Positions 4,738-12,909 of a stretch of DNA of 22,782 nucleotides are shown one piece after another (within the stretch, counting starts at the first letter, position 1; each line of letters starts with the position of its first letter). Under the pieces are notes generated by a model. That model saw nothing but the letters and a program-made list of their open reading frames with translations. It ran no database searches and was not told the DNA's origin. The DNA is from a virus. Location: the IMG/VR virus record IMGVR_UViG_3300030382_003852, positions 1 to 22,782 of that record. One strand, given 5' to 3'. Position numbers and translations under genes: made by a program.

Positions 4738-5086
4738 ATTCTACCTTCCATTTTTTATAGCCGTCTATCCATTTCTCTTGTTTGAGTTCTGTAAAAGATA
4801 TGCCTTTAGGAGGATGATAATGGCCTTCCATATCTTCATCAATGTAGAAAAGTTTAACTCCTAATTTTTTTTGTAGAATAGTTAGATTACGATGAATAGG
4901 ATAACCATCTCTTTTTCTTTTTAAATAAGTCTTTACGTCTAATAATTCTGTATCTCCTTTAGGATGAGTTACAGAAATATCATAAGGACCATGTTGTTCT
5001 ACATTTTTACAAACGACACATCCTTTTTTTAAAAAATAAATAATTGCTCTTTTTTCGTTGATCGTTCCTTTAGTGCTTTGTTTCAT
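4718..5086 (-). CDS. PD-(D/E)XK-type nuclease
   Basis: 122 residues with the layout of the restriction-endonuclease-like fold: an N-terminal helix with a conserved acid (KGTINEKRAI, E11), the strand GPYDISV with D36, then LLDVKTY giving D50-x-K52, the classic D...(D/E)xK metal site. This resembles small phage and archaeal Hjc-like resolvases or other small PD-(D/E)XK nucleases; I cannot decide which. The likely role is cutting branched or host DNA during replication or recombination, in line with its position directly before the polymerase. The start overlaps the stop of the SET gene (ATGA). No DNA-binding domain is added, so it is the bare catalytic core. Confidence 0.65.
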   Translation of the reverse strand: MKQSTKGTINEKRAIIYFLKKGCVVCKNVEQHGPYDISVTHPKGDTELLDVKTYLKRKRDGYPIHRNLTILQKKLGVKLFYIDEDMEGHYHPPKGISFTELKQEKWIDGYKKWKVEYDNSKI

Positions 5087-5385
5087 ATATTATAAAACGT
5101 ATATTTCAACGTTATTTCCTCCCCTTTATTAATGTCTTTGATTGTGATTAGACTCCACCTCTTAGCTTTTAGTTCTCCATTTGATTGAAGTTCTATTTTT
5201 ACACAGTTAGGATCATTTGCATGGTTAATAAAACCTCCTAAAGGTGTACGAATTATTTTATCTCCTACTTTAACATGAGATGTTCCTAGATTTGTAGCTT
5301 GTGGAATATTCTCTTTTGCAAAGAGACCAAGACCGTTGATTTTAGATGTAGCTACAGTTACAGAATCAGGTAAAGGTTTATACAT
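5083..5385 (-). CDS. SET-domain protein (putative protein lysine methyltransferase)
   Basis: 100 residues that match a minimal SET domain: GLGLFA (18-23) after the first strand, GGFINHANDPNC (50-61) with the N54-H55 pair and the PN turn that form the S-adenosylmethionine pocket, and GEEITLKY (88-95) with the catalytic-type Tyr95. SET enzymes move a methyl group from S-adenosylmethionine to a protein lysine. There is no pre-SET or post-SET cysteine cluster. The protein ends 5 residues after the last motif, so the substrate channel would be short. The substrate could be a phage replication protein or a host protein; nothing in the sequence says which. It overlaps DUF3310 by 8 nt and the nuclease by 4 nt. 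Confidence 0.85.
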   Translation of the reverse strand: MYKPLPDSVTVATSKINGLGLFAKENIPQATNLGTSHVKVGDKIIRTPLGGFINHANDPNCVKIELQSNGELKAKRWSLITIKDINKGEEITLKYTFYNI

Positions 5386-6164: not shown

Positions 6165-7636
6165 ATTTTATACTCCTTTCTTCTATCCTTTCCTCTAATT
6201 AGAAATAGATTTTGTTTTGCTCTTGTTACACCTACATACCAAACACGATGTTCTTCATCTTGTTTGGAAATTGATTTTTTTGAAGATTTTAATGTATTCG
6301 CTGTTTGATCTTGTAGTAAGACCACATTTTCTGCTTCCCCACCTTTGGCTCCGTGAATTGTTGATATTCTAACTCTAGGGTCTAATCTTAAGTCCTCACC
6401 ATTGATTCGCATTGAACGAATATAAGCCGATATTTGAGGCGAAACTGCTGTGAAAACATTATACCAAGGACCTTTCTCCTTTATTCCAACTTCTTCTAAA
6501 GTAAATTCTTTATCCAGTGTTTCTTTAAATTCTTTGTTCATCCTTTCAAAAATTCTAGTAATTTCTATAGTGTTTAATTTTTCTCCTTTTCTCCATTTTT
6601 CCCAGCTTAATATGTCTTTGTATAGACTTTCGCTAATGCTTCTACCATTTTTACTTTCAAAGTAAATACCTTTTTTCTTGAGGATAGGAATAAGCCCTCG
6701 GATAAGTTCGTTAGTCCTAGCCAAGATCAACCATGTTCCTTTGGACATGTCTAATTGATTAATAGAAAAAGATAAATTAATTGAACCTAGTTCATCTCTG
6801 GGTTTATAGGTTTTATCAATACGATTATCTACTTTTAATATTATTTTAAGAGCTATTTCTTGTACCTCTGTGGGTATCCTATTGGATTGGGTTAAAGGTA
6901 TTTCTTTTGCGTCAAAATTAATAAAAGATTCTACATCAGCACCCGCCCAACCAAAAATAGCTTGGTCGTCATCCCCTGCGATATAAACATCTTCAGAATA
7001 TTCTTGTAATTTTTTAACCATATCCCATTGAATAAGGGATAAATCTTGTGCCTCATCAATAAAAATGACATCAAATTCTGGACAATGACCACAGCCAATA
7101 AATTTTTTTATCATATCGGTAAAGTCAATGAGGTGGTAAGTTTTTTTATAAGAATCAATTTCTTTAGAAATAATATCTAATTTATATCTTTCTATTTTTC
7201 CTAAATGTTCATTACGATCTAATTGATCTAAAGCACTAATTTTTCTTACACTAGCTAAATTAATAATGTTTAAATATTCACTATTAGAAGTAAATATTCC
7301 ATTATATTCGTTCTTTTCATAGTTTGCATAATTAATTCTTACTCCAATAGTTTCTCCTATAGACCGGTAGTGATCTTCCTGAATAACATCTTCTTCTTTT
7401 AATCCTAAATAATTAAAACAAAAAGAATGAAGTGTTTGAAAATATTTTAAATCTTTTTTAACAAGATTAGGAAATTCTTTTAAAAATCTATCTCTTGCTT
7501 CGTAAGCTGCTTTACGAGTAAATGCAAAATAACCAATACGAGTTAAAGGGGTTCCTTTATTAATATATTCTTTTACCTTTTCTAAAAGGGTGTGTGTCTT
7601 ACCTGTTCCTGGTGGACCGATAACTTTATAATTCAT
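6161..7636 (-). CDS. UvrD/PcrA-like superfamily 1 DNA helicase
   Basis: 491 residues with the full set of SF1A motifs: Walker A GPPGTGKT (7-14), Ia FAFTRKAA (38-44), HSFCF (about 70), Walker B FIDEAQD (D194/E195), motif III GDDDQAIFGWAGAD (221-234), motif IV LTQSNRIP (248), motif V STIHGAKGGEAENVVLL (about 420-435) and motif VI YVGVTRAKQNLFL (about 465-478). It uses ATP to unwind DNA, probably 3'-5' as in UvrD/Rep. It is shorter than bacterial UvrD (about 720 residues), mainly from reduced 1B/2B domains, as in compact phage helicases. The start overlaps the primase stop (TAATG). It is the best candidate for the replicative or repair helicase of this module. Confidence 0.95.
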   Translation of the reverse strand: MNYKVIGPPGTGKTHTLLEKVKEYINKGTPLTRIGYFAFTRKAAYEARDRFLKEFPNLVKKDLKYFQTLHSFCFNYLGLKEEDVIQEDHYRSIGETIGVRINYANYEKNEYNGIFTSNSEYLNIINLASVRKISALDQLDRNEHLGKIERYKLDIISKEIDSYKKTYHLIDFTDMIKKFIGCGHCPEFDVIFIDEAQDLSLIQWDMVKKLQEYSEDVYIAGDDDQAIFGWAGADVESFINFDAKEIPLTQSNRIPTEVQEIALKIILKVDNRIDKTYKPRDELGSINLSFSINQLDMSKGTWLILARTNELIRGLIPILKKKGIYFESKNGRSISESLYKDILSWEKWRKGEKLNTIEITRIFERMNKEFKETLDKEFTLEEVGIKEKGPWYNVFTAVSPQISAYIRSMRINGEDLRLDPRVRISTIHGAKGGEAENVVLLQDQTANTLKSSKKSISKQDEEHRVWYVGVTRAKQNLFLIRGKDRRKEYKI

Positions 7637-9201
7637 TAAAAGTTATCTCCCTCACGTTTAATAGGCTTATATTCTATTTGATCTATATGTAGCTGTTTTA
7701 TTTTAATAACTTTTTCTGTTTTACCATCAATATTTATAGAGTAATTAAATATTGCTCCAAATTCTTTTTTCATCATATAGGCAGTTTCTTCTTCAGAAAA
7801 TTTCCAACGATTACCTAATGAATCATAGAAAGATTGAAATTTAAAAAAATGAAATCCTTTATTTGTATAGCAAGATCCACTTCTAATTTGTATTTTTTGC
7901 TTTGCTTGAGAACTATTGACACAGAATTCATATAAATGATTATATAATTTATCGACATCAGACGTTCCTGCTGCAGGTTTGACTTCTGTTGCAGAAGCTC
8001 TCATTCCATTTATTTTAGCAATAAAGTCATTAAATTTAAGACGTTCAGGATAAAAACCAGCAACTTCCCAACATAACGCTGCGAACTGTTCCTGTTTACA
8101 GAATATATTTTTATCTCTAACCACAGCGGGTTTTAATTTTCCGTCCTGTGCTTCAATATTAAAATGATACCTACGTGGATTTCCTAAAATAATTTCAAAG
8201 TCACTTATCATTGGGAATGCAACATTTGAATCGGATCTAATACCAAATGTTCTACTAGCGCATAATGTTCTTTGACAAACAGGGGCTATTGGATCTTCAT
8301 GACAAGTGTGACTCGCTGTTTCTTTTCTCCAAGCTTTTAATTTTTTTTGTAATTTTTCGTTGCTAAAAGGTTGTTCAAAATATTTAGTATTTGCTTCCAT
8401 AACCTTATCTTCCCATTCTTCTTTATATTTCTTTTTAGCAAAGACCATATAGTTATATAAAAATCGATCTCTACCATCATCTAATTTTGATTTTGATAAA
8501 CAACCTAAACAAGGAGGTCCATCATTAAATTCTGGATCTGCTCCTAATAGTATTTTTCTTCTTGATTCTTCAACTAAGCTATCTAAAGCTTTGCCATCTA
8601 TTCTAGAATTTTTAACTAATTCAATAAATTGTTCTAAACTTAATTTATGATTATTTTTATCAACAGCATAACGACTAGTTTTTTTACAATTAAAATAAGG
8701 AAGATTAATAAAATTACCTGGAGAATATTGATCTCCAATTTTTTCAAGTTTAGATTGTTTTGGAAAGACTTCAGTTTTTGGATCTAATTTTAAAGGTAAT
8801 AAGAAAGATTGTAGAGCTTCTCTTAAATCAGAAGCTGGAACAGGTTCTTTTAAAAAAATATAACAATGCAAACCTCCACTTTTAGATAAACAAGGAATTA
8901 GAGGAAGTCCATATTGTTGAAAGTAAGCTAAATAAGTTTCAATTTTAAATTCACTATAATTTTTTGGATCAATGTCTATACAACCAAAGGATGCTTTTCG
9001 GTCTATTCTACAAGGTTGTATGCCGATGGATATTTTGCCGTTTAAATGTAATTGGTAGTCTTGAGTATTGATGTTTCTTCCCGCCCATTCGTATCTAGGT
9101 TTAACTTTATTTCTTTCTGTGTCGACCTCGATGTTGGACATATCGGCTTTGCCGAAGTCCAAATCAAATCCACTAAATATTTTTATAAAATCTTCTATCA
9201 T
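7636..9201 (-). CDS. Archaeo-eukaryotic-type primase
   Basis: 521 residues. The N-terminal half has the signatures of the archaeo-eukaryotic primase (AEP) fold: FGCIDIDP with D76 and D78, LSKSGGLHCYIFL with S108/H112, and a later acid near KTEVFPKQ, followed by GNFINLPYFN. The middle carries PPCLGCL (C231, C234) and then HTCHEDPIAPVCQRTLC (C300, C309, C314), a cysteine set that could bind zinc or an iron-sulfur cluster. The C-terminal third is unassigned, and no helicase motifs are present. It should make primers for the family A polymerase and works beside the UvrD-like and SNF2-like helicases. The ATG at 9201 has no clear ribosome-binding site; instead a hairpin ends 11 nt before it. Confidence 0.8.
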   Translation of the reverse strand: MIEDFIKIFSGFDLDFGKADMSNIEVDTERNKVKPRYEWAGRNINTQDYQLHLNGKISIGIQPCRIDRKASFGCIDIDPKNYSEFKIETYLAYFQQYGLPLIPCLSKSGGLHCYIFLKEPVPASDLREALQSFLLPLKLDPKTEVFPKQSKLEKIGDQYSPGNFINLPYFNCKKTSRYAVDKNNHKLSLEQFIELVKNSRIDGKALDSLVEESRRKILLGADPEFNDGPPCLGCLSKSKLDDGRDRFLYNYMVFAKKKYKEEWEDKVMEANTKYFEQPFSNEKLQKKLKAWRKETASHTCHEDPIAPVCQRTLCASRTFGIRSDSNVAFPMISDFEIILGNPRRYHFNIEAQDGKLKPAVVRDKNIFCKQEQFAALCWEVAGFYPERLKFNDFIAKINGMRASATEVKPAAGTSDVDKLYNHLYEFCVNSSQAKQKIQIRSGSCYTNKGFHFFKFQSFYDSLGNRWKFSEEETAYMMKKEFGAIFNYSINIDGKTEKVIKIKQLHIDQIEYKPIKREGDNF

Positions 9202-10984: not shown

Positions 10985-10994
10985 AGCTTTCTAT

Positions 10995-11023
10995 TTGACT
11001 TTGAATATATTATTTAGTAAGAT
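10995..11023 (+). promoter_or_regulatory. Rightward sigma70-like promoter for the SNF2 unit
   Basis: -35 TTGACT (10995-11000), a 17-bp spacer, and -10 TAAGAT (11018-11023). The predicted start near 11030 leaves a leader of about 13 nt before the ATG at 11043. Confidence 0.6.
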
Positions 11024-11030
11024 TTGTCAA
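11004..11030 (-). promoter_or_regulatory. Leftward sigma70-like promoter for the replication operon
   Basis: On the minus strand a perfect -35 TTGACA (plus 11025-11030) is followed after 15 bp by -10 TATATT (plus 11004-11009); a weaker TATTCA lies at the ideal 17-bp spacing. It overlaps the rightward promoter completely, so the two polymerases must compete. Confidence 0.55.
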
Positions 11031-11042
11031 TTAGAAAGAATT

Positions 11043-12479
11043 ATGAATTATAAATTTAAGACATCTCCCTATAAGCATCAGCTTGTTGCTTTGGAAAAGT
11101 CGTGGGATAAAGAAGTTTTCGCCTATTTTATGGAAATGGGTACAGGGAAATCAAAAGTGCTTATAGATAATATGTCTATGCTTTATGATAAAGGTAAGAT
11201 AAATGGGGCTTTAATTATTGCCCCTAAAGGAGTGTATAAAAATTGGTATACTCAAGAAATTCCAACACACCTTGTAGATCATGTCAAGAATAAGACTATT
11301 TTATGGCAGGCTAACATAAATCAAACACAACAAACAAAACTTGATACTTTATTTGAAACAGGAAATGATCTTCACATTCTCATTATGAATGTAGAAGCTT
11401 TCTCAACTAAAAAAGGTGTTGATTTTGCTTTTAAATTTTTGAATTCACACGAAACTTTAATGGCTATTGATGAAAGTACCACAATTAAAACCCCTTCTGC
11501 TAAACGAACAAAAAATATTATTGGTTTATCCAAATATTCTAAATATCGAAGAATACTAACTGGATCTCCTGTGACTAAATCTCCTTTAGATTTATACAAA
11601 CAGTGTGAGTTCCTTGATCCGTGGCTCCTAGGCCATGATTCATTTTACTCGTTCCGTTCACGATATGCTATTATGAGATCGGCTAACTTTGGGGGTAAAT
11701 CTGTGCAGCTTGTGGTAGGTTATAGAAATCTACCGGAATTGTCCGAGAAACTTAAGCCTTTTTCTGATCGTGTTTTAAAGGATGATTGTTTGGATCTTCC
11801 CCCAAAAACCTTTATGAAACGAATCGTTCAATTATCTGCAGAACAACAAAAGATTTATAATCAAATGAAACAGATGGCTCTTGCAGAAATGAATGGAAAA
11901 ATTATAACCACCGCTACTGCTTTAACTCAATTAATGCGATTACATCAAATTACCTGTGGTCATTTTACTGCGGATGATAAATCCATACAAGATATTAAAA
12001 ATAATCGTTTATCAGAATTAATGGATGTTTTAGATGAAATTGAAGGTAAGGCTGTAATTTGGGCGCATTATCAACATGATGTTCAAACCATCGTTAAAGC
12101 TATAGAGAAGAATGAAGATTATGGTAAAGGATCCGTTGTAACTTATTATGGTCTAACTCCATCAGAAGACCGAGATATTAATAGAAAAAAATTTCAAGAA
12201 GATGGTAAAGTTAGATTTCTTGTTGGAACTCCTCAAACAGGAGGTTATGGAATTACTTTAACCGCTGCATCGACCATGATTTATTATTCTAATGGTTATG
12301 ATTTAGAGAAACGTCAACAATCGGAAGCACGAATTGATCGTATTGGTCAAAAGAAACCTATGACCTATATTGATATCCTTGCAGAGAATACGGTTGATGA
12401 ACGAATCGTTAAAGCTCTTCGTAAAAAAGTAAATATTGCATCCAAGATTATGGGTGAAGAATTAAAAGACTGGATTTAG
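11043..12479 (+). CDS. SNF2-family helicase/ATPase
   Basis: 478 residues from ATG 11043; the upstream in-frame ATG at 10995 lies on the promoter -35 and is rejected. Motifs: YKHQL (Q-type, 10-14), Walker A MGTGKS (32-37), LIIAPKGVYKNW (motif Ia, 57-68), DEST instead of DEAH (143-146), LTGSP (172-176), GTPQTGGYGITLTAA (motif V, 395-409) and QSEARIDRIGQ (motif VI, 426-436). The two RecA-like lobes are complete and no chromodomain or nuclease is fused. SNF2 proteins move along double-stranded DNA using ATP. In phages they may clear proteins from DNA or aid recombination and replication. It is the first of two plus-strand genes, opposite in direction to all the rest. Confidence 0.95.
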   Translation: MNYKFKTSPYKHQLVALEKSWDKEVFAYFMEMGTGKSKVLIDNMSMLYDKGKINGALIIAPKGVYKNWYTQEIPTHLVDHVKNKTILWQANINQTQQTKLDTLFETGNDLHILIMNVEAFSTKKGVDFAFKFLNSHETLMAIDESTTIKTPSAKRTKNIIGLSKYSKYRRILTGSPVTKSPLDLYKQCEFLDPWLLGHDSFYSFRSRYAIMRSANFGGKSVQLVVGYRNLPELSEKLKPFSDRVLKDDCLDLPPKTFMKRIVQLSAEQQKIYNQMKQMALAEMNGKIITTATALTQLMRLHQITCGHFTADDKSIQDIKNNRLSELMDVLDEIEGKAVIWAHYQHDVQTIVKAIEKNEDYGKGSVVTYYGLTPSEDRDINRKKFQEDGKVRFLVGTPQTGGYGITLTAASTMIYYSNGYDLEKRQQSEARIDRIGQKKPMTYIDILAENTVDERIVKALRKKVNIASKIMGEELKDWI

Positions 12480-12534: not shown

Positions 12535-12909
12535 ATGAAAACAAATGAACAAGGTGATGTATGGTTAGATAAAGTTGGAGCCTATGTATGCTGCAGTTAT
12601 CTTAACGAATCTAAAACAGACTTCGTTGATGAAAAATCAGAATCTGTTTATCATTTATACCAAAAGCATTTTGGCAATAATGCGAATGATATAAAACACG
12701 AAATTAGAAGTTATATTTTTGAATTAATTGAAAAGACTCAATATAAAAAGCGTAATTTGATTAAGGCTCTTAGGGAAAAGTTTCCTCAAGTTAATTCAGG
12801 GGTCATTTGCCGAATTATCAAAAACTATTTAAATCTTAGAGTGCTTGAGATTGATAGAACCTATAAAACCAAACCTTTTATCATTAAAGGTAAATATTAC
12901 ATTAAATAA
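12535..12909 (+). CDS. Small basic protein, possible winged-helix regulator
   Basis: 124 residues, not recognised. The ribosome-binding site AAAGGAG lies 6-7 nt before the ATG. The N-terminal half is mixed alpha/beta. Residues about 60-124 (KKRNLIKALREKFPQVNSGVICRIIKNYLNLRVLEIDRTYKTKPF) have a helix-turn-helix rhythm followed by a beta hairpin, ending basic (KGKYYIK), which would fit a winged helix. Being the last gene of the only rightward unit, right before a terminator and downstream of a divergent control region, it is a fair candidate for the regulator that binds the inverted repeat. That is inference. Confidence 0.65.
   Translation: MKTNEQGDVWLDKVGAYVCCSYLNESKTDFVDEKSESVYHLYQKHFGNNANDIKHEIRSYIFELIEKTQYKKRNLIKALREKFPQVNSGVICRIIKNYLNLRVLEIDRTYKTKPFIIKGKYYIK

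Follow-up and report, generated by a model that had tools for sequence, protein, structure and literature searches.

The locus

The window analysed here is the whole of a 22,782-bp virus record (IMGVR_UViG_3300030382_003852), a contig of an HTVC023P-type pelagiphage. This assignment is based on its SNF2-type helicase, which shares 67% identity with its counterpart in Pelagibacter phage HTVC027P and 65% with the one in 023Pt_psg01, and on the genes of the opposite strand, which occur in the same order as in those two genomes (Pam3-like genes, primase, helicase, PolA). The first gene of the leftward replication operon is a Pam3 gp32-like gene (PF23992; 10595-10984, minus strand), hereafter the left gene, and it is separated by an intergenic gap of 58 nt from the divergently oriented SNF2 gene (11043-12479, plus strand). 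Downstream of SNF2 lies a gene for a 124-residue protein (12535-12909, plus strand), which is lineage-restricted and outside the conserved unit.

Within the intergenic gap, a left arm, CTTTCTATTTGAC (10987-10999), and a right arm, GTCAATTAGAAAG (11026-11038), pair as an inverted repeat at 12 of 13 positions across a gap of 26 nt (10987-11038). Each arm contains the -35 box of one of two opposed sigma70-like promoters: the left arm joins the rightward -35 to a minus-strand AGAAAG in the leftward leader, and the right arm joins the leftward -35 to the AGAAAG of the rightward leader. The rightward promoter consists of TTGACT (10995-11000, plus strand) and, after a 17-nt spacer, TAAGAT (11018-11023, plus strand; the same in L001-L004), with a predicted start at about 11030. 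On the minus strand, the leftward promoter has a -35 box, TTGACA (11025-11030), that is kept in related phages. The preliminary description had paired this box with TATATT (11004-11009, minus strand) over a 15-nt spacer. The -35 stands, but the -10 was probably read in the wrong register, as the near relatives L002-L004 carry TATAAA or TATACA at the 17-nt register and no -10 at the 15-nt register. The leftward -10 of the window is thus probably TATTCA (11007-11002, minus strand; 17-nt spacer, predicted start about 10995), a weak box (3/6), with TATATT as the alternative. Each element of that description, namely the repeat, the boxes and the AGAAAG hexamers, was found where it had been placed. 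Its estimate that transcription starts about a dozen nucleotides from both genes also agrees with the predicted starts (about 11030 rightward and 10995-10997 leftward), which are 33-35 bp apart. An AGAAAG stands ahead of each start codon, 4 nt from the ATG of SNF2 (11043) and 2 nt from that of the left gene (10984, minus strand). The two divergent genes have their -35/-10 sets on the same DNA, on opposite strands (10995-11030 in the window, and in related phages as well).

Taken alone, the window sequence is little proof of such an arrangement, as both of its components occur at near chance frequency: nine consensus promoter matches were found in 2 kb (8.7 expected from shuffles), and three 12/13 inverted repeats with gaps of 3-40 nt in the window (2.0 +/- 2.5 in Markov-1 random windows). 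We hold the observation to be real because the arms, their orientation and the gene pair recur in relatives.

Conservation among relatives

Relatives were fetched by their SNF2 protein, so that the conservation sample is independent of the motif, and were clustered at about 92% SNF2 identity. Loci obtained through the palindrome pattern were excluded from the conservation statistics; earlier counts that included them are superseded by those given here. TTGAC...GTCAA arms are present at the SNF2/Pam3 gp32-like junction in 148 of the 156 junctions of two arm-bearing clades. Arms, orientation and gene pair occur together in 81 of 89 junctions of the window clade and in 67 of 67 of the 023Pt_psg01 clade, and both -35 pentamers are kept in 56 of the 58 clusters of these clades. 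The commonest form of the arms is near-palindromic, TTGACAATATA-N12-TATATTGTCAA. Arms are absent from the junctions compared in the HTVC027P and HTVC023P clades, as well as from the one DSL-LC04-like relative inspected, intergenic regions being longer in that group.

Comparison across related phages had been proposed as a check of the preliminary description, and it shows the TTGAC halves of the arms to be conserved in two clades. Loss of the arms with retention of the boxes, which that description would have counted against itself, is seen in part: the inner halves are kept in two clades, the outer halves are kept only partly, and a third clade has promoter boxes without both arms.

The pattern TTGACAATAT-N12-18-ATATTGTCAA was also scanned in IMG/VR, and the matches listed were pooled with the loci from relatives. 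Among these matches there are at least 134 palindrome occurrences, some of them from contigs counted twice; 127 of the 134 listed are adjacent to SNF2, to the left gene or to both, and 121 show a 14-nt gap, the length at which both promoters obtain 17-nt spacers. The same pattern is matched by 67 scattered records from bacterial genomes (L458-L524), in mixed contexts, and none of them is titled SAR11. The 14-nt gap occurs in 24 of these 67 bacterial matches, where about 10 would be expected if all gaps were equally frequent; few of the 24 lie between divergent genes.

Promoters or operator

An operator and a promoter pair should respond differently to a change in the gap between the arms: the flanks of operator half-sites should move with the arm, whereas a -10 should hold its 17-nt distance to the -35 of the same promoter. 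The comparison covered 30 clusters of the window clade (60 strand-cases). In 75% of these cases TAT begins at precisely that distance (70% when clusters with a 24-nt gap are left out), whereas no single distance measured from the opposing arm accounts for more than 35% (42% without those clusters). The gap between arms measures 23, 24, 26, 27 or 28 nt and has changed repeatedly on the SNF2 tree, so that the fixed half-site spacing of a dimeric operator is not found here. In addition, the -10s on both strands score above shuffled cores. The repeat thus behaves as two promoters, and not as the operator of a dimer.

The inner arms match each other beyond permutation only at gaps of 23-24 nt; at gaps of 26-28 nt, and in the 023Pt clade, they match no better than permuted arms. 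At 23-24 nt each -10 lies directly against the opposing -35, a layout that imposes a match, since moving both boxes changes both arms.

That only one of the promoters is real, whether rightward or leftward, the other being a by-product of AT-rich sequence combined with chance symmetry, seems unlikely to us. AT-rich DNA does easily yield -10-like hexamers, the leftward -10 of the window is weak at 17 nt, and the consensus scans return no more promoters than shuffled sequence. However, the retention of both -35 pentamers in nearly all clusters, the excess of both-strand -10s over shuffled cores and the 17-nt lock (which holds with strands pooled) all argue against it, and a contig of 58-63 kb contains no more than 1-3 close matches to TTGACN-16/18-TATAWT.

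We likewise give little credence to the view that the palindrome serves mainly as the operator of a dimeric regulator, from phage or host, with promoter boxes that are secondary or covered. The near-perfect dyad of the commonest form would suit an operator, and so would the better-than-permuted match of the two inner arms at gaps of 23-24 nt. Against this stand the variable gap, the -10s locked to their own -35, the failure of the inner arms to exceed permuted ones at gaps of 26-28 nt and in the 023Pt clade, and the lack of the palindrome in any record titled SAR11 in the bacterial-genome search. Moreover, no conserved regulator gene adjoins the junction in the fetched loci, and the HTVC027P clade has lost an arm while apparently keeping the overlap. 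The dimeric regulator envisaged in the preliminary description is therefore not borne out. Nor is its candidate, the 124-residue protein: among the fetched loci it occurs only in L003 and L004, which belong to the nearest relatives of the window, and in no phage record, and, being confined to these two, it cannot regulate a clade-wide site. No family match was obtained for this protein (12535-12909). Its C-terminal half looks helix-turn-helix-like by eye, the fold prediction being poor (single sequence, pLDDT 60).

AGAAAG and a predicted leaderless transcript

The preliminary description regarded AGAAAG as a weak ribosome site shared by both genes. In annotated HTVC027P and 023Pt_psg01 genes, the usual ribosome site is mostly AGGAG or GGAG. 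The distance of GAAAG to GTCAA in the window clade has a standard deviation of 1.3 nt, versus 3.8 nt for its distance to the SNF2 ATG, and the commonest form has its left GAAAG within the coding sequence of the left gene (ATGAAAG). These observations make it improbable that AGAAAG acts just as a ribosome site. In the arm-bearing clades, the hexamer (11033-11038 and 10987-10992 in the window) keeps a near-fixed distance to the promoter and not to the start codon. When a -10 followed by AGAAAG was searched for as a motif of phage promoters in general, the clear matches came from this same junction and the others were near control.

In 51 of the 52 junctions with 23-24-nt gaps (the L005 type), the left ATG lies 6-7 nt after the end of the left -10, and no ribosome site lies between them. 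Such a placement is expected of leaderless mRNA (PMC3160421), and we predict from it that in the commonest form the mRNA of the left gene, the first of the replication operon, is leaderless. The window itself is not leaderless on this side, its predicted leftward leader being about 11-13 nt long.

The HTVC027P and HTVC023P clades

The HTVC027P clade, labelled by kinship and not by scoring, forms one side of a fully supported branch of the SNF2 tree. It has lost the right-hand arm and kept a rightward TTGACT-17-TATATA, and most of its clusters have leftward TTTACT-18-TATA-type boxes. By box scan, the predicted -10s overlap by 4 nt and the starts are 21 bp apart in 13 of the 20 clusters, a count that may be low, as the best-score scan chose implausible leftward boxes in some of them (L206, L244, and L252). 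Judging from these boxes, promoter overlap seems to persist in the clade, where the two promoters would now have a -10 in common. As overlap seems to be retained without the right arm, overlapping divergent promoters appear to be the constant feature of the larger clade, and the arms one route to building them.

In the HTVC023P clade (L366-L445), it is the left gene that has a strong ribosome site, AAGGAGGTTCTT, and SNF2, often with a GTG codon, starts shortly after TAAATAATT without such a site. SNF2 may thus be the leaderless gene in this clade.

Proposed mechanism

We consider it likely that the junction is an interlocked divergent promoter, that is, two housekeeping-sigma promoters on opposite strands which limit each other. 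With 17-nt spacers in both, either -10 would come to lie next to the opposing -35 or end slightly before reaching it. Each arm would then consist of an inner half, which is the -35 of one promoter (continued in the commonest form by the -10 of the other), and an outer half, which is the AGAAAG close to the 5' end of the transcript leaving on that side, so that the inverted repeat would result from the layout itself. The boxes, their spacing, the lock of each -10 to its own -35, their conservation and their distribution among clades are direct results of the computation. We infer from them that polymerase uses both promoters, occupies them exclusively and in this way sets the ratio of the two transcripts. 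Host RNA polymerase could bind in a single orientation at any moment, so that the replication operon (leftward) and SNF2 (rightward) would depend on a common site, each at the expense of the other. The preliminary proposal of overlapping divergent promoters for these two units is supported and extends to relatives, and the competition for RNA polymerase that it suggested is plausible. The sequence can be explained without invoking a dedicated regulator.

Mutually exclusive binding of polymerase at overlapping promoters has been reported in other systems (PMC4207663; PMC12825309). Overlap need not mean interference, however, since unactivated bidirectional promoters of E. coli are often too weak: the basal output of five of them was too low for competition (PMC12825309). 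The further idea of an early switch finds no support. The early genes in the HTVC027P transcriptome (PMC12753301) are without exception of unknown function, so that the annotated helicase of this phage would not be among them.

The palindrome might also do double duty, serving as two promoters and at the same time as a recognition site that sets direction during infection; the recogniser would be a phage protein or polymerase in a special two-way state, and the promoter-locked GAAAG near each transcript start would be part of the signal, a combination that we judge improbable as a whole.

Relation to known systems

Overlapping divergent promoters are a known kind of element. What is new is that the two promoters interlock as mirror images, that this layout has persisted, and that a sister clade has apparently replaced it with a shared -10. 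In phage lambda, PR and PRM are divergent promoters placed back to back, with repressor operators. The cI mRNA of lambda is leaderless (PMC9031893), and the junction described here resembles PR/PRM in having divergent phage promoters with one leaderless mRNA (here predicted, for the left gene, in the commonest form). Unlike the present promoters, those of lambda are not written over one another, and they come with repressor operators, whereas no repressor is known here.

A second parallel is provided by the bidirectional promoters with a shared -10 described by Warman, Grainger and colleagues (PMC12825309, PMC10268837). The likeness lies in pseudo-symmetric DNA, in divergent transcription and in a polymerase that binds in one of two orientations, as we propose for the window. 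By prediction, the HTVC027P clade fits this class, with overlapping -10s and starts 21 bp apart in most clusters. In contrast, the window and its clade have no shared -10, each -10 lying by the -35 of the other promoter (in the window, 11018-11023 versus 11002-11007 or 11004-11009). Their symmetry takes in the -35s, and predicted starts about 33-37 bp apart in the clade (33-35 bp in the window) fall outside the 7-25 bp of the definition.

The Pc and Pr promoters of plasmid pLS20 (PMC4207663) likewise have coinciding divergent core promoters, and polymerase itself is part of the switch, a role that we propose for it here too. They differ in that pLS20 has a strong and a weak promoter, a dedicated regulator (Rco), operators and looping, none of which was found at the window junction. 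The paper on HTVC023P-type genomes makes no mention of promoters (PMC9599517).

The layout spans much of the most abundant known virus group of ocean SAR11 bacteria. As a compact and conserved host-type promoter heading the replication operon, it offers a testable handle on phage gene timing, and the series of natural variants (gaps of 23-28 nt, a shared -10, leadered and leaderless forms) lends itself to testing how divergent overlap is maintained in evolution.

Two other genes of the window may be recorded here. The primase (7636-9201, minus strand) matches the archaeo-eukaryotic primase domain of TOTE conflict systems (PF22548, E = 2e-14). A phage protein of 100 residues (5083-5385, minus strand) matches the SET domain (PF00856, E = 2.3e-10), a protein-lysine methyltransferase fold that is unusual for a small marine phage.
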